NCBI GenBank assembly: GCA_021794205.1
Contig: JAJYRH010000005.1
Span: 1-64,000 of the forward strand
From: a bacterium
Lineage (GTDB): Bacteria > Vulcanimicrobiota > Vulcanimicrobiia > Vulcanimicrobiales > Vulcanimicrobiaceae
Direction: 5' to 3'
Length of the DNA: 64,000 nt
Part shown: in pieces, positions 35,637 through 43,320 of the stretch
Position numbering within the stretch: the first letter of the stretch is position 1
Layout of the letters: each line of letters starts with the position of its first letter
Made by a program: the position numbers and the translations under genes
Notes under the pieces: generated by a model
Told to the model about the DNA's origin: nothing
Seen by the model: only the letters and a program-made list of their open reading frames with translations
The model's database searches: none

Positions 35637-37070
35637 TTATGCCAGGTATTCGCTAAGGCCGTGAACGCCGCCCTCGCGCCCGAAACCGCTCTCGCGGAAG
35701 CCGCCGAAGGGCGAGGCGGGATCGAAGCGATTGAACGTGTTGCACCAAACGACGCCCGCAGTCAGTCGCTGCGCTACAGCCATATTCGTGCTGCCGCGCT
35801 CGGTCCAGACGCCTGCGGAGAGTCCGTACGGTGTGTCGTTTGCTTTTTCGATCGCCTCCTCGGGGGTGCGGAACGTCATGACCGCCAGAACGGGGCCGAA
35901 GATCTCTTCGCGCGCGATGCGGTGCGCACTCTGCACGTTGGTAAAGAACGAGGCGCGATAGAAATATCCTCGCTCGGGGAGGTCGCAGCGCTGTTGCATC
36001 AGCGTCGCGCCCTGATCGACGCCGCTGCGGACGAGCTCGTCGATGCGCTCGAGCTGAGAGCGGGAGTTGATCGCACCGATGTCGGTATTTTTATCGAGTG
36101 GATCGCCGAGGCGCAGGCGGTCGATACGCTGTTGGAGCCGCGCGACGATCTCATCGAAAATGGACTCTTCGACGAGCAGTCTCGATCCCGCGCAACAAAC
36201 GTGTCCCTGGTTAAAGTAGATGCCGCGCACGACTCCTTCGATCGCTTGGTCCAAAGGAGCGTCTGCGAACAGTATGTGGGCCGCCTTGCCGCCGAGTTCG
36301 AGCGTGAGGCGCGTCTCGCGCCCTGCAAGCGCGCGAGCGATCTCGCGACCGACCTCGGTGGAACCGGTAAATGCAACTTTATCGAGGCCGGGGTGGGCGA
36401 CGAGGGCGGCGCCGGTCGCACCGTCGCCGGTTACGACGTTGAGCACGCCCGGCGGCAGATCGGCATCGCGCGCGATTTCGGCGAGCAGCAGCGCGGTCAT
36501 CGGCGTGGTTTCTGCAGGCTTGAGGACGACGGTATTTCCGCAGGCCAGAGCGGGAGCGATTTTCCAGGCCGCCATGAGTAGGGGGAAATTCCACGGGACG
36601 ATTGCGCCGCAGACGCCGAGCGGTTGCGGGCGTCGACCGGCGCGAAGCACCCATTCCAGTTTGTCCGCCCACCCGGCGTAGTAGAAGAAGTGCGCCGCCG
36701 CCGTCGGTACGTCGAAATCGCGCGCCTCGCGGATTGGTTTGCCGCCGTCGATCGATTCCAACACGGCGATCTCGCGCGAGCGTTCGGTAATCGCTCGTCC
36801 GATTCGGAAAAGATATTTCGCCCTCGTTGCCGGCTTCATGGGAGCCCACCAACGCTCGTACGCCTTTCGCGCGCTGCGTACCGCTCGCGCTACGTCGTCA
36901 GAGCCACCGTACGCGATGCGAGCGATCGGTTCTTCGCGGGCCGGGTCGATCGTGACGTCGTAACGGCCGCTCTGTGGCGCGCACCACGTGCCGCCGATAA
37001 AGAGGCCGTACTCGTTACGGATCTCCGGGCGAGCGCTCTCGGGGGCCGCGGCGTATGCTGATGAGCTCAT
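35637..37070 (-). CDS. aldehyde dehydrogenase next to deoC
   Basis: 477 aa from ATG 37070, preceded by GAGGCGAG; a TTG at 37085 is less likely. A complete NAD(P)-dependent ALDH: PWNFPLLMAAWKIAPALACG, VAFTGSTEVGREIA (GS loop), LTLELGGKAAHIL (general base) and QGHVCCAGSRLLV (catalytic Cys). The C-terminal half is canonical, ending FGGFRESGFGREGG. It follows deoC, whose reaction yields acetaldehyde and glyceraldehyde 3-phosphate, so acetaldehyde oxidation to acetate is a reasonable inferred role. Confidence 0.93.
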   Translation of the reverse strand: MSSSAYAAAPESARPEIRNEYGLFIGGTWCAPQSGRYDVTIDPAREEPIARIAYGGSDDVARAVRSARKAYERWWAPMKPATRAKYLFRIGRAITERSREIAVLESIDGGKPIREARDFDVPTAAAHFFYYAGWADKLEWVLRAGRRPQPLGVCGAIVPWNFPLLMAAWKIAPALACGNTVVLKPAETTPMTALLLAEIARDADLPPGVLNVVTGDGATGAALVAHPGLDKVAFTGSTEVGREIARALAGRETRLTLELGGKAAHILFADAPLDQAIEGVVRGIYFNQGHVCCAGSRLLVEESIFDEIVARLQQRIDRLRLGDPLDKNTDIGAINSRSQLERIDELVRSGVDQGATLMQQRCDLPERGYFYRASFFTNVQSAHRIAREEIFGPVLAVMTFRTPEEAIEKANDTPYGLSAGVWTERGSTNMAVAQRLTAGVVWCNTFNRFDPASPFGGFRESGFGREGGVHGLSEYLA

Positions 37071-37081
37071 AATATCTCGCC

Positions 37082-37960
37082 TCAATCCTTCGGGATGCGT
37101 TCCGGGCGCGTGTAGTGACCGGTGCGAATGCGTTCGCGTTGTAGCAAGAGGTCGTCTAGCAGCGCGCTCGCCCCGATACGAAACGATCCTGGTTCCAACC
37201 AGGATTCGCCGAGCGTCTCATTGAGAATCGCGAGATATCCCAGCGCCTGTTTCGTGTTTCGAATGCCTCCGGCGAGTTTGAGCCCACGTCGAACGCCGGC
37301 ACGCCGAAAAAAAGCGGCGAGGGAATCGCACATCGCTAGGGCCGTCGGGAAGGTCGCATTCGTACCGATCTTTCCAGTCGAACTCTTAATCGTATCGGCA
37401 CCCGCTTCGAGCGCGAGGTCGCAGGCACGACGGATCGCGGTGTAACTTCCCAACTCGCCGGTTTCGAGAATCACTTTGAGGTGTCGATCGCCGCACCGAC
37501 CTTTGATCGCGTGGATCTCGGCCGCGACTCGGTGCTCGTCACCGCTGAGAAACGCACCGCGGTCGATAACCATGTCGATCTCATCGGCGCCAGCGTTTAA
37601 GGCTTGTTCGGTGTCGGCGAGTTTTACGGCGAGCTCGCTCTGTCCCGCGGGGAATGCCGCCGCTACCGATGCGACGCGCACATCGCTCCCATCGAGCGCT
37701 CGGCGCGCGATGCCGACGAAATTCGGATATACGCAGACCGCAGCGACCGATGGGGCGTCGCTTCCTGGAAGCGGAGTCCGAGCCTTCGCGCAGAGCGAGC
37801 GCACTCGCCCCGGAGAGTCCCTTCCCTCCAACGTCGTGAGATCGATGCACGATATTGCGAGGTCGATCCACGCCCGTTTCGTCTCGCCTTTGATCGATCG
37901 AGCCGCCAGCTCGTTCGCGCGCGATTCGAGCATGACGGCATCGACGCAGACCCGTTTCAT
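37082..37960 (-). CDS. deoC: deoxyribose-phosphate aldolase
   Basis: 292 aa, longer than E. coli DeoC. Class I aldolase cleaving 2-deoxyribose 5-phosphate. The Schiff-base Lys is K192 in DTIKSSTGKIGTNA, the proton-relay Lys is K228 in GLKLAGGIR, and AVCVYPNFVGIARRAL and DEIDMVIDRGAFLSGD are typical. The ATG directly follows the hppD stop (TAGATG), and the ALDH follows 11 bp later, giving hppD-deoC-aldh in one likely transcript. Confidence 0.95.
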   Translation of the reverse strand: MKRVCVDAVMLESRANELAARSIKGETKRAWIDLAISCIDLTTLEGRDSPGRVRSLCAKARTPLPGSDAPSVAAVCVYPNFVGIARRALDGSDVRVASVAAAFPAGQSELAVKLADTEQALNAGADEIDMVIDRGAFLSGDEHRVAAEIHAIKGRCGDRHLKVILETGELGSYTAIRRACDLALEAGADTIKSSTGKIGTNATFPTALAMCDSLAAFFRRAGVRRGLKLAGGIRNTKQALGYLAILNETLGESWLEPGSFRIGASALLDDLLLQRERIRTGHYTRPERIPKD

Positions 37961-39088
37961 CTACAAGGTGCCGCGCTTCTCTTGCTCTTTTTCGATCGAC
38001 ACGAAGAGTGCTTTGAAATTGCCCTTCCCGAATGAGAGGCTCCCTTTGCGCTGGATGATCTCGAAGAACACCGTCGGTCGATCTTGCAGCGGCTTGGTGA
38101 AAATCTGCAACATGTAGCCGAGGTCGTCGCGATCGACGAGAATTTTGCGCGCGTGCAAAACGTCGATATCTTCGTCGATATTCCCTACCCGCGCCCGGAG
38201 GTCTTCGTAGTAGGAGTCCGGCGTATCGAGAAACTCGACGCCGTTATCGCGGAGGGCGTCGATCGTTGCAACGATATCGTCGGTACGAATTGCAATATGT
38301 TGAACGCCCGCCCCGCGATAAAAATCGAGGTACTCTTCGATTTGGGATTTCTTTTTTCCATGAGCCGGTTCGTTAATAGGAAACTTCACGCGATGGCGGG
38401 GATCGCTCATCACTTTCGATTTCAGCGCGGTGTACTCGGTCGAGATGTCTTTATCGTCGAACGATATAAGCTGAGAAAAACCGAACACTTTCTGATAAAA
38501 CTCACCCCAACCGTCCATCTCTCCCCAGCCTACGTTGCCGACGCAATGGTCGATCGCCAAAAGGTGCGGCTGCGAGGCGCGCGCGTAGCGCTTACGGGCG
38601 GATACGAAGCCCGGCAGAAAGACTCCGTCGTATCCGTCGCGTTGAACGAAGGTATGCACGGTATCGCCGTAGGTGGCGATCGTCGCCACCACGACCCGTC
38701 CGCGATCGTCGCGGCGTTCGGTCGGTTCCAGCAACGAGCGCGCTCCGCCGCGAACCGCCATCTCCCAGGCTCCGCGCGTGTCGTTCACGCGAATCGCGAT
38801 GTCTCGGACGCCGTCGCCGTGAAGCTTGACGTGCTCGGCGATCGCGTCGTCCCCGCGCAGGCTCGAGGTGAGCACGAAGCGGAGGTCGTGTTGCTCGAGA
38901 ACGTAGCTCGCGCGGTCGTGTAGTCCCGTTTCGGGCCCGGCGTACGCGATTTGTTCGAACCCGAACGTGGCTTGATAAAATTGCGATGCTTGTTTGGCGT
39001 TCCCGACGTAGAACTCCACATGATCCCAGTCGATTTTTGAGAGCGGAGTCGTACCTTCGGAGGCCGGCGAGGCGTGCGTTGTGCTCAT
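37961..39088 (-). CDS. hppD: 4-hydroxyphenylpyruvate dioxygenase
   Basis: 375 aa from ATG 39088. Converts 4-hydroxyphenylpyruvate to homogentisate with Fe(II) and O2. Two vicinal-oxygen-chelate domains are seen: an N-terminal one starting DWDHVEFYVGNAKQ, and a catalytic C-terminal one. The Fe ligands are His in LLAIDHCVGNV, His in VQHIAIRTDD and Glu in VFFEIIQRKG. The start of the longer frame at 39154 runs into the divergent neighbour's promoter region and is rejected. Divergent from the fahA pair with a 64-bp gap. Confidence 0.96.
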   Translation of the reverse strand: MSTTHASPASEGTTPLSKIDWDHVEFYVGNAKQASQFYQATFGFEQIAYAGPETGLHDRASYVLEQHDLRFVLTSSLRGDDAIAEHVKLHGDGVRDIAIRVNDTRGAWEMAVRGGARSLLEPTERRDDRGRVVVATIATYGDTVHTFVQRDGYDGVFLPGFVSARKRYARASQPHLLAIDHCVGNVGWGEMDGWGEFYQKVFGFSQLISFDDKDISTEYTALKSKVMSDPRHRVKFPINEPAHGKKKSQIEEYLDFYRGAGVQHIAIRTDDIVATIDALRDNGVEFLDTPDSYYEDLRARVGNIDEDIDVLHARKILVDRDDLGYMLQIFTKPLQDRPTVFFEIIQRKGSLSFGKGNFKALFVSIEKEQEKRGTL

Positions 39089-39152
39089 GGGATCCGTCTT
39101 AGCGGGGATGTCGGCAGGGCCCTTGTGCCCCCTCGGGCAAACGGCGCGAACC

Positions 39153-40085
39153 ATGATAACCGAGGCGCTCGCACGGGCGATGTTTACCGGATCGATCGAC
39201 TACGCGGGGCTCTTTCCGCCGGCCCAACTCCCGTTACCCGAGGCTCACGCCGCGTATCGCCGGGCGCTGCAATCTCGGCACGCGTGGATGCTCGGTCGCT
39301 ACGTGGTTCCGTTCTCGCAATTTTCGGATCTGTTCGCCCTTCATGTCGATGCGCCCGCAATCGAAGCGAGCGTCATTCTCGATGCGCCTCGGGAATCCAC
39401 ATTCTGGCTCAACGAGATCTCCGAGCGACTCGAAGCGCTCGCCGATCGATCGCACGGCGCCGCGACGCTCCGCGTCGGCTCGCTGGAGATTCCGGTTCCG
39501 CCGCTGAGAGCGGCGAGGGAGAATTACGGGGCCGTGCTGTCGCAGGTCGGGGCGCTGCTCGATCGGTTCGGATTGCGTCACCTGCCCTGTTATGTGGAGT
39601 TTCCGCGCGACGAGCGCTGGCCGCGCGAGATGCTCGGCGCCGTCGAATCGCTCGCCCGCACGCGATTGCGCTCGAAAATTCGCTGCGGCGGGCTCGTCGC
39701 CGAGGCGTTCCCCTCTCCCGCGGAGCTTGCGTCGCACGTGCTCGCTTGTTCCGAGCACGGCGTTGCTTGGAAGGCGACCGCCGGCCTGCACCATCCCATC
39801 GCGCGGCGGGCCCTCGATTCGGGGTTCGAGATGCACGGTTTCGTCAATCTCTTGACGGCATCGTGTTTTGCGGCTCAGGGCGCGCCCTTCGAAGAGATCG
39901 AAGCGGTTCTTGTCGAGCGTTCGAGCGAGGCCTTTCTTTTTGCCGAGGGCGGGCTCTCGTGGCGCGGTCGACGCTGCGATATGGCGACGATCGAGCGCGC
40001 GCGCGCCGCTGGGTTTCTCTCGTTCGGCAGTTGCAGTATCGACGAGCCGGTCGAGGATCTTATTGCGCTCGGGTGGCTCGTATGA
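39153..40085 (+). CDS. conserved protein of unknown function coupled to fahA
   Basis: 310 aa, soluble, no signal peptide. I do not recognise a characterised family. Recognisable conserved-looking stretches are SKIRCGGLVAEAFPSPAELA near residue 170, GVAWKATAGLHHPI near 205, and FEMHGFVNLLTASC near 225. The alternation of strands and helices with a lysine at the end of a strand (IRCGG, WKATAGLHH) suggests a TIM-barrel-like fold, but this is inference. Its stop overlaps the fahA start (ATGA) and it diverges from hppD, so it very likely acts in tyrosine/homogentisate breakdown. Confidence 0.8.
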   Translation: MITEALARAMFTGSIDYAGLFPPAQLPLPEAHAAYRRALQSRHAWMLGRYVVPFSQFSDLFALHVDAPAIEASVILDAPRESTFWLNEISERLEALADRSHGAATLRVGSLEIPVPPLRAARENYGAVLSQVGALLDRFGLRHLPCYVEFPRDERWPREMLGAVESLARTRLRSKIRCGGLVAEAFPSPAELASHVLACSEHGVAWKATAGLHHPIARRALDSGFEMHGFVNLLTASCFAAQGAPFEEIEAVLVERSSEAFLFAEGGLSWRGRRCDMATIERARAAGFLSFGSCSIDEPVEDLIALGWLV

Positions 40086-41392
40086 GTGCCCTCGATCTCG
40101 ACGAAACCCACGATCCGCAGCGAACGAGTTGGGTCGAGGTCGCTCCGGAGAGCGATTTTCCGATCCAGAACCTGCCGTTCGGCATCTTTTCGACGGAGCG
40201 TCGCGATCCTCGCATCGGCGTTGCGATCGGCGACAGCATTATCGATCTGCGCGCGCTTGCCGAAGCGGGGCATCTCGATCCGATCGCCGATCGTGCGATG
40301 TTCTGTGCTGACCGTCTCAACGCGCTGATGGCGGCGGGGCGTCCGCTCTGGCGCGCGCTGCGCGGAAGGCTCGGCGAGCTGCTACGCGTCGGCGGAGAGC
40401 GCACGCTGCGCGACATGCCGCAGGCATTGTGCGGTTTCGAAGAAGCGCGGATGCATCTTCCGGCGTCGATCGGCGACTACATCGATTTTTATTCATCGAT
40501 CGAACACGCAACGAATTTGGGGCGGCTCTTTCGCCCCACCGGCGACCCGCTTTTGCCGAATTGGCGCTGGATTCCGATCGGCTATCACGGGCGGAGCGCG
40601 ACGATCGTTCCCAGTGGGACGCCGATCCGTCGCCCGTGCGGCCAGCGCAAGAGCCCCGATCTCGAGGCGCCGGTCTTCGCTCCGAGCAGACGGCTCGATA
40701 TCGAACTCGAGATCGGATTCTTCGCCGGGCCCGGCACCGAGCTCGGCGACCGCATTCCCATCGAGCGCGCCCGCGAGCATATCTTCGGTAGTGTCTTGGT
40801 CAACGATTGGAGCGCCCGCGACATTCAAGCCTGGGAATATCAGCCTTTGGGTCCCTTTCTCGGAAAGTCGTTCGCGACGACGATATCGCCGTGGGTGGTG
40901 ACGATCGATGCTCTGGAACCCTTTCGCGTCGCGGGGCCCGCGCAGGTACCGGCGCCCCTGCGCTATCTGCAGCGGCACGATGCGGACAATTATGCGATCT
41001 CGCTCTCAATATGGTTATCGAGCGACGCGATGCGGAAACGTGGGCTCGATGCCTCGCCGATCGCGCGGACGAGCTTTGCGACAATGTACTGGAGCCAGGC
41101 GCAACAACTCGCGCATGCCGCGAGTAACGGCGCGACGATCCGCCCCGGCGATCTCTTCGCATCGGGAACGATCAGCGGCGATCTCCCCGGCTCGCAGGGG
41201 AGCTTGATCGAACTCACCGAGAACGGCGTCCGCCCCCTGCGCCTCCCAGGCGGCGAGGAGCGCGCCTTCCTGGAGGATGGAGACGAGGTTACGCTGGTCG
41301 CCCGCTGCCAACGCGAGGGATTTCGTTCGATCGGATTCGGGAAAGTCGTAGGGCGGGTGCTGCCGGCGACGAACGAAGGGTGTGAGGCCTAA
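40082..41392 (+). CDS. fahA: fumarylacetoacetase
   Basis: 436 aa. Hydrolyses fumarylacetoacetate to fumarate and acetoacetate, the last step of tyrosine breakdown. It has the N-terminal SH3-like domain (IQNLPFGIFSTERRDPRIGV) and the catalytic region with IGDYIDFYSSIEHATNLGRL, PIGYHGRSATIVPSG, LDIELEIGFFAGPG and the metal-binding VNDWSARDIQAWEYQPLGPF. ATG 40082 overlaps the stop of the upstream gene. The open frame extends far upstream, but only as a shadow. Confidence 0.97.
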   Translation: MSALDLDETHDPQRTSWVEVAPESDFPIQNLPFGIFSTERRDPRIGVAIGDSIIDLRALAEAGHLDPIADRAMFCADRLNALMAAGRPLWRALRGRLGELLRVGGERTLRDMPQALCGFEEARMHLPASIGDYIDFYSSIEHATNLGRLFRPTGDPLLPNWRWIPIGYHGRSATIVPSGTPIRRPCGQRKSPDLEAPVFAPSRRLDIELEIGFFAGPGTELGDRIPIERAREHIFGSVLVNDWSARDIQAWEYQPLGPFLGKSFATTISPWVVTIDALEPFRVAGPAQVPAPLRYLQRHDADNYAISLSIWLSSDAMRKRGLDASPIARTSFATMYWSQAQQLAHAASNGATIRPGDLFASGTISGDLPGSQGSLIELTENGVRPLRLPGGEERAFLEDGDEVTLVARCQREGFRSIGFGKVVGRVLPATNEGCEA

Positions 41393-42153: not shown

Positions 42154-42169
42154 GCCGAACGAGGCTTAC
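42150..42169. terminator. hairpin spanning both convergent stop codons
   Basis: gtaagcc (42150-42156) and ggcttac (42163-42169) form a 7-bp stem with a 6-nt loop. The lipoprotein stop TAA and the hmgA stop TAA both lie in the stem. It could serve as a bidirectional terminator, but no U-tract is present on either side. Confidence 0.4.
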
Positions 42170-43320
42170 GTCGTCGACCACGAACGATAGTATCCTTCGT
42201 CTTCGCAGAGGGTCGCTTCGCGAGCGACCCTCAGCGGTTTGAACGTATCGACCATGATCGCGATTTCATCGGTCTCCCGCTTCCCAAGGCTCGCCTCAAC
42301 CGCACCGGGTTGCGGCCCGTGCGGCGCCCCGGCGGCGTGGAGCGTGATCGAGCCTTCAACGACCCCGCGCCGACTCATGAAGTTTCCGCTCACATAATAG
42401 AGCACTTCATCGCAATCCACGCTGGAGTGGTTGTACGGCACGGGAATCGCGAGTGGATGGTAATCGAAGAGCCGCGGTACGAAGGCGCAGAACGCCGCGC
42501 CCGGCGCTTCGAAGGTTGCGTGCGCGGTCGGAGGCTGGTGGAGTTTCCCGGTGATCGGCATGAAATCCAGAAGATTGAAAGCGTACGGATAGCAATATCC
42601 GTCCCAGCCGACGACATCGCACGGGTGATTTTCAACGACGTAGAGGGCATTCCGCCCGCGATTGGTGACGCGAATTTCGTACGAGCCCACCTCGGCGTTC
42701 GGCGCTCCCAAGATCGGGGCTCGAAAATCGCGCTCGTAGTACGGCGCGTGCTCTTCGAGTTGCCCGAATTCGTTGCGATATTTGCGCGGCACGCTGACCA
42801 TGCCGACCGATTCGTGAACCACCATGTCGGTCGGTTCCGTGGGTACGATCCGCCACGTGGTGCCCGTCGGCATGAGAATGTAATCGAGCGGGCGATAGTC
42901 GAGGCGGCCGAACGGCGTCTCGAACGTTCCCGTCCCCCGATGGATAAAGAGCAGCTCGTCGCCGCCCACGTTGCGATAAAAGCTCGCCATCGGTTCGCGC
43001 GCGGTCGCCAGTGAGAGTAACACGTCGTCGTTGCCGAGGATCGGGGTGCGCGAATCGATCGCGTCGCCGGAGAGCGTTAATTTTCCGGTGAGGAAATGCC
43101 GATTGCGCAATGGATCGTTTTCGTGGAGATCCACGCGCGAGCGATGCCATTTGCGAACCTCGCGGGTCGCCGTCGGCGGGTGCTCGTGATAGAGCAACGA
43201 GTAGATGCTCTCGAATCCGCGCGTCGAGAAGAGCTCTTCGGCATAGAGTCCGCCGTCGGGGCGACGAAATTGGATGTGGCGCTTCTCGGGCAGTTCGCCC
43301 GCTGCATGATAGCTCGGCAT
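42166..43320 (-). CDS. hmgA: homogentisate 1,2-dioxygenase
   Basis: 384 aa, shorter than the human enzyme (445). Opens the ring of homogentisate to maleylacetoacetate using Fe(II). A cupin fold is evident: MPSYHAAGELPEKRHIQF, ELLFIHRGTGTFETPFG, DYILMPTGTTWRIVPTE, FDYHPLAIPVPYNHSSVDCDE, and LHAAGAPHGPQPGAVEAS, with Fe-ligand His/Glu in the last two regions. It lies 3 bp downstream of the CDGSH gene on the same strand, not with hppD and fahA. Confidence 0.95.
   Translation of the reverse strand: MPSYHAAGELPEKRHIQFRRPDGGLYAEELFSTRGFESIYSLLYHEHPPTATREVRKWHRSRVDLHENDPLRNRHFLTGKLTLSGDAIDSRTPILGNDDVLLSLATAREPMASFYRNVGGDELLFIHRGTGTFETPFGRLDYRPLDYILMPTGTTWRIVPTEPTDMVVHESVGMVSVPRKYRNEFGQLEEHAPYYERDFRAPILGAPNAEVGSYEIRVTNRGRNALYVVENHPCDVVGWDGYCYPYAFNLLDFMPITGKLHQPPTAHATFEAPGAAFCAFVPRLFDYHPLAIPVPYNHSSVDCDEVLYYVSGNFMSRRGVVEGSITLHAAGAPHGPQPGAVEASLGKRETDEIAIMVDTFKPLRVAREATLCEDEGYYRSWSTT

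Follow-up and report, generated by a model that had tools for sequence, protein, structure and literature searches.

The 64,000-nucleotide stretch of a Vulcanimicrobiaceae genome analyzed here (hereafter the window) carries, at 39153..40085 on the forward strand, an open reading frame that runs from an ATG at 39153 to a stop codon at 40085 free of internal stops. It encodes a 310-amino-acid protein that we call X as a working name and that we propose to be a thiol-cofactor-independent maleylacetoacetate isomerase with a predicted TIM barrel fold. The next gene on the same strand, fahA (40082..41392), starts inside the stop codon of X, and its product is by sequence a true fumarylacetoacetase (TIGR01266, 523 bits at a cut-off of 375). 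On the reverse strand, the longest open reading frame for hppD, encoding 4-hydroxyphenylpyruvate dioxygenase, occupies 37961..39154 (TIGR01263, 452 bits), and the products of hppD and fahA both score above the curated cut-offs. Because the longest-frame start at 39154 would overlap the start codon of X, hppD probably begins at an ATG at 39088, which would leave a divergent intergenic region of about 64 bp between the two genes (39089..39152). A third partner, the 384-amino-acid homogentisate 1,2-dioxygenase HmgA (42166..43320, reverse strand; PF20510, E 9e-9), is of a short, divergent type that stays below the cut-off of TIGR01015 (62 bits versus 511) and shares 50% identity over 382 residues with a Priestia protein annotated as homogentisate dioxygenase. 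The arrangement described in the original prediction, with X overlapping fahA by ATGA (40082-40085), diverging from hppD on the opposite strand, and lying close to hppD, hmgA, and fahA, is thus confirmed throughout. Just downstream of hppD, genes for an aldehyde dehydrogenase and a DeoC-type aldolase are found at 35637-37960; this pair is kept beside hppD in close relatives (loci L002 to L007, with DeoC of L003 detected by phmmer only), and many other loci of the X family have a DeoC-like open reading frame near X.

X is under purifying selection, with dN/dS values of 0.16 to 0.24 against six relatives of 62% to 89% identity. Across 50 distinct X sequences, the residues D16, K175, K207, N232, and R284 are invariant, and E112, R177, T209, G211, H213, G292, C294, and S295 are each found in 49; E149 is also conserved in the family. 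The segments SKIRCGGLVAEAFPSP and KATAGLHHP, which had been picked out as conserved-looking, indeed both fall into the best conserved parts of the family. The sole departure at the eight near-invariant positions comes from one locus next to fahA (L051, 4944-5762, in genome G061) in which the KATAGLHH and GSCS motifs are gone and D16, K175, and K207 are kept, which could reflect either a decayed enzyme or an altered function.

No Pfam model matches X at E<=5 and no NCBIfam model at E<=1, and X is therefore not an ordinary annotation miss. When 24 members of the family were searched at E<=10, only scattered single-member matches were obtained, the best of them (E 0.0018) to an unrelated radical-SAM model. 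Several known families gave no sequence match: the MaiA (zeta-class GST) model TIGR01262 is absent from the 7 NCBIfam families and the DeoC model PF01791 from the 9 Pfam families matched by these 24 members at E<=10, and neither X nor the 24 members match PF11716 (mycothiol-dependent maleylpyruvate isomerase, MDMPI) or PF17645 (maleate isomerase/Amdase). A profile search for relatives among solved structures gave chance matches only (ThyX with E 0.025, polyubiquitin with E 0.37), and no relative of X was found in viral contigs.

Two AlphaFold2 models of X, each built with 7 sequences (pLDDT 70.9 and 68.4; pTM 0.77 and 0.74), both predict an alternating beta/alpha barrel with structure matches to TIM barrels, though strand 8 is unresolved in the second. 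In the first model, where residues 1-25, 210-228, and 287-310 mostly have a pLDDT below 50, K175 lies on strand 6 (173-177), K207 on strand 7 (206-210), E112 on strand 4, E149 on strand 5, and C294 just past strand 8. The two models, which are of moderate confidence, and residue conservation thus support the suspected barrel with a lysine-rich site. The best PDB matches of the first model are deoxyribose-phosphate aldolases (DERA; Z 13.9, rmsd 3.9, 230 aligned residues), 1.6 Z units above pyruvate kinase (Z 12.3, rmsd 3.8, 207 aligned), and for the second model beta-amylase (Z 12.6, rmsd 3.4, 207 aligned) is level with the DERA-type aldolases (Z 12.3, rmsd 3.7, 200 aligned). Foldseek returned no PDB match for the X model at E<=0.001, and no match to X was found in a viral structure library at the same threshold.

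The likeness to DERA extends to the placement of charged residues. The solved E. coli DERA chain carries D16, D102, K167, and K201, compared with D16, E112, K175, and K207 of X, so that the acid and the first lysine are 65 residues apart in the E. coli aldolase versus 63 in X, and the two lysines 34 versus 32. We take the catalytic residues of DERA to be an aspartate on strand 1, an acid on strand 4, and lysines on strands 6 (forming the Schiff base) and 7; X shares the aspartate, the acid, and the lysine placement on strands 6 and 7 as a matter of modelled position, not of Schiff-base chemistry. Homology between X and DeoC was not supported by hhalign, which gave no significant result at four settings (probability 0.2%, E 0.26); its best local register pairs both lysines, and the -global register is meaningless. 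With a profile comparison that is not significant, DERA resembles X in build rather than being a demonstrated relative, and X additionally has the KATAGLHH and GSCS motifs and its linkage to fahA.

Among 118 genomes of the phylum, X is present in 71, comprising 71 of the 75 genomes with fahA and none of the 43 others (Fisher p 6e-28, a value that ignores relatedness). FahA matches were found in 83 genomes at E<=0.001, and the 75 carriers counted here are the 69 above the cut-off plus six with partial or sub-cut-off matches (G029, G100, G106, G027, G110, and G081), the remaining 8 genomes being excluded as having other FAH-fold proteins. In 67 of the 71 carriers, X and fahA share a strand and X immediately precedes fahA. 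As for the other four, X precedes fahA by 1.4 kb on the same contig in G108, diverges from hppD while fahA lies near an HmgA-like gene on a separate contig in G094 and G113, and is truncated by a contig end in G111; the equivalent 1.4-kb gap in G063 is filled by an HmgA-like open reading frame, and a second X-fahA pair of that genome is adjacent. Many Eremiobacterota loci share the divergent arrangement of X and hppD. MaiA scores above its cut-off in none of the 118 genomes, 84 of which have a completeness of at least 90% and a contamination of no more than 5%, and sub-cut-off GST matches to the MaiA model occur in 13 genomes, 7 of them X carriers.

Four genomes have fahA and no X (G012, G027, G088, and G098), as confirmed with a broader profile that reached only E 0.2 in G088. 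The 99% complete genome G012 (locus L042) encodes hppD, hmgA, and fahA, yet neither X nor a MaiA match nor a recognisable isomerase. The genes beside fahA in G012, G088, G098, and at the second copy of G108 comprise exoribonuclease-like, HbpS-like, integrase, and flavin oxidoreductase genes and include no evident isomerase.

Beyond the phylum, tblastn with either of two queries detected X in 24 plasmid records, i.e., from Streptomyces (11), Priestia (6), Pseudonocardia (2), Rhodococcus (2), and one each from Kovacikia, Nonomuraea, and Tsukamurella. In all 24, fahA follows directly downstream on the same strand, 8 to 110 nt past the end of the match. Homologues tied to unrelated pathways, which the original prediction had named as evidence against itself, did not appear either among these 24 records or among the 71 genomes with X, where X is directly 5' of fahA in 67, 1.4 kb from it in one, beside hppD in two, and cut off by a contig end in one. 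The plasmid homologues are annotated as hypothetical proteins in all 22 annotated matches (two of the 24 bear no annotation). Gene orders vary from hppD-X-fahA-hisC-hmgA in Priestia and hppD-hmgA-X-fahA in Tsukamurella to hmgA-X-fahA in Pseudonocardia, in Rhodococcus (with an HmgA-type gene that bears a cupin protein annotation), and in Streptomyces Alt3 (where CoA-transferase genes follow). The cyanobacterium Kovacikia has X-fahA with hppD and hmgA adjacent on the opposite strand, and Streptomyces NBC_00525 has X-fahA with no hmgA within the stretch shown. The gene annotated as histidinol-phosphate transaminase in the Priestia operon (L037, 3659-4762) more likely encodes a tyrosine aminotransferase.

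The HmgA-type proteins of the Priestia, Pseudonocardia, Tsukamurella, and Rhodococcus rhodochrous loci (one each) score 57 to 61 bits on TIGR01015, and FahA exceeds the TIGR01266 cut-off in all three loci scored (Priestia, Pseudonocardia, and Tsukamurella), which indicates that X is accompanied there by an HmgA of the short type and a standard FahA. Kovacikia probably makes glutathione, and a lack of glutathione is therefore no universal correlate of X.

A total of 119 plasmid records carry fahA, and the best 60 of these divide into 11 with X, which belong to Actinomycetota and Bacillota, and 49 without X, which are all Pseudomonadota as read from their genus names. At least 13 of these 49 show a MaiA-type match no more than 2 kb away from fahA, counted among the best 60 of 229 MaiA records. 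Sphingobium has hppD-hmgA-fahA-maiA without X, and no Sphingobium is among the 24 X records. In the actinomycete Nocardia farcinica (L094, NZ_LN868939.1), unlike in the X-bearing plasmid records of actinomycetes, hmgA is followed directly by fahA, and X was not found in the stretch read. The X family is bound to fahA in four phyla, and the known isomerase is missing where it was looked for.

The genome that harbors the window (2.2 Mb, 90% complete) was searched as a whole for isomerases of known type. The MaiA model TIGR01262 has no match in it even at E<=1, so that the reported lack of maiA near X extends to the whole assembly. The caveat that maiA may simply lie elsewhere found no support in this genome or, at the curated cut-off, in any of the 118 genomes of the phylum. 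Glutamate-cysteine ligase (gshA) was not found with TIGR01434 or PF04107, and PF17645 for Amdase-type maleate isomerases gave no match at E<=0.01; among the host and the four fahA genomes without X, this model, which matched none of 14 control genomes, hit G088 only. MDMPI (PF11716) left a single sub-cut-off trace with a stop inside in the host genome and is above its cut-off in none of these five genomes. A GST_N_3 search of the host gave four matches, one of them over the cut-off, and the matches followed up are a 98-amino-acid glutaredoxin-like protein and a 308-amino-acid protein with GST_N_2 and GST_C_2 domains. The latter, which resembles Xi-class GSTs, is encoded on contig C5 away from X, matches neither NCBIfam nor the MaiA model, and is a weak rival for the isomerase step.

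Taken together, these observations make it nearly certain that X belongs to the lower homogentisate pathway, where we take it to act as a dedicated enzyme. Most likely, with a probability that we put at roughly 0.7, it isomerizes maleylacetoacetate to fumarylacetoacetate with no need for glutathione or any other low-molecular-weight thiol and is unrelated to MaiA. We infer this reaction from the position of X, its co-occurrence with fahA, the lack of a recognisable maiA in the genomes searched, residue conservation, and the modelled fold, and the earlier idea of a glutathione-independent isomerase thereby gains strong comparative support. Maleylacetoacetate is the product of HmgA and fumarylacetoacetate the substrate of FahA, and X would connect the two. 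In a speculative mechanism, one of the lysines K175 and K207, which the predicted barrel places as in DERA-type class I aldolases, would activate the C4 ketone via a Schiff base or by protonation, and a built-in nucleophile, for which C294 is the best candidate, would add to C2. The bond between C2 and C3 would then turn single and could rotate before elimination yields the trans isomer, so that an internal cysteine of X would replace the glutathione thiolate of MaiA. The chances seem about even that X represents an undescribed family of maleylacetoacetate isomerases with all of these features, i.e., a TIM barrel, a lysine pair, and a cysteine of its own that stands in for glutathione.

It seems unlikely that X instead serves a different dedicated reaction or a side reaction in the lower pathway, such as an aldolase-like cleavage or the removal of dead-end tautomers or adducts that arise from maleyl- or fumarylacetoacetate, with isomerization occurring spontaneously or by FahA itself. 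A barrel with two lysines would likewise be fitting for an aldolase, and fahA genomes with neither X nor MaiA do exist (for Nocardia, X alone was looked for). X is therefore not strictly required, judging from the four fahA genomes of the phylum and Nocardia farcinica, and maleylacetoacetate may self-isomerize or be hydrolyzed directly. A maleylacetoacetate hydrolase has been described in some Bacillus (Crawford 1976, as cited in a passage of PMC4457819). Speaking against such a role of X are bare hmgA-X-fahA operons, where X sits in the position of maiA, and a host genome that, in searches for MaiA, MDMPI, and Amdase, yielded no other good candidate for the isomerase.

An isomerase that depends on a thiol could also be encoded elsewhere in the genome, be it the 308-amino-acid GST-fold protein, an enzyme of MDMPI type in the case of actinomycetes, or a maiA that falls in the 10% of the genome missing from the assembly, and X would then have nothing to do with isomerization. 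The GST_N_2/GST_C_2 protein and the incomplete assembly leave room for this reading, and the plasmid of Streptomyces NBC_00525 carries a gene annotated with a maleylpyruvate isomerase N-terminal domain about 3.3 kb upstream of X (L039, 1982-2638), which slightly lowers our confidence in the isomerase assignment. A figure legend in a study of Streptomyces albidoflavus likewise places a gene of the mycothiol-dependent maleylpyruvate isomerase family next to homogentisate dioxygenase (PMC11012174), and a mycothiol-type isomerase may thus serve in these organisms. Given the searches with the MaiA and MDMPI models described above, which stayed empty over their cut-offs in 118 and five genomes, respectively, we regard this explanation as very unlikely. 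We give similarly little credence to X being a non-catalytic partner of FahA or HppD, e.g., a scaffold, chaperone, or accessory factor. Its tight coupling to fahA and its divergent orientation to hppD in many Eremiobacterota loci would be compatible with such a role, and there is a precedent in the fungal protein HmgX, for which such a partnership with HppD has been suggested and which according to a passage of PMC3203155 is needed for the HppD step. However, the invariant charged residues on the predicted barrel strands look catalytic, plasmid X-fahA loci without hppD in the stretch shown argue against a helper of HppD, and FahA proteins of the same family appear in Proteobacterial records without X.

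Assignment of X as the maleylacetoacetate isomerase would fill a textbook pathway step that is without an assigned gene in some bacteria. Such a gap in Gram-positive tyrosine catabolism stands in print: PMC4457819 states for Bacillus anthracis that no maiA gene is identifiable and that it is unclear what becomes of maleylacetoacetate. The operon of this organism given there consists of hppD, fahA (as HmgB), and hmgA, so that the B. anthracis group may solve this step differently. In a proteomic study, Rhodococcus globerulus showed HmgA and HmgB on phenylalanine or 2-hydroxyphenylacetate, and the relevant excerpt of PMC11889516 names no isomerase. Among the matches listed from open-licence PubMed Central, no title or beginning of an abstract named the X family or a glutathione-independent maleylacetoacetate isomerase. 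A report from the 1980s is said to have described glutathione-independent isomerization of maleylpyruvate in Bacillus megaterium. Should the isomerase assignment of X hold, it would give a role to a family of "hypothetical proteins", close the tyrosine degradation pathway in bacteria that lack glutathione, and offer for study a barrel enzyme that catalyzes cis-trans isomerization without a cofactor. A thiol-cofactor-free homogentisate pathway composed of short HmgA, X, and FahA would then operate in Eremiobacterota, Actinomycetota, some Bacillota, and a cyanobacterium.

X can be compared to several known systems. HmgX of Aspergillus fumigatus is, like X, an uncharacterised protein in a tyrosine-degradation cluster, but it is encoded by a 771-bp transcript and its cluster includes maiA. 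MDMPI, known from Corynebacterium, is reported as a variant with another thiol that replaces a glutathione-dependent cis-trans isomerase in Gram-positives (Feng 2006, cited in PMC3937715). This enzyme (PF11716) acts in the gentisate pathway, whereas X has a homogentisate context and no PF11716 match. The fold of MDMPI also differs from the one predicted for X. Maleate cis-trans isomerase of the Asp/Glu racemase superfamily achieves cofactor-free isomerization by means of an active-site cysteine and hence serves as a model for the proposed chemistry of X, although its family (Amdase, PF17645) has no sequence match to X and a fold different from the predicted barrel. MaiA itself (a zeta-class GST, TIGR01262) differs from X in sequence, in length (211 model positions versus about 310 amino acids), and probably in fold, given the TIM barrel predicted for X; X further has a conserved lysine pair and cysteine and a host without visible glutathione synthesis. 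What the two proteins share is their pathway and their place in the operon with HmgA and FahA.
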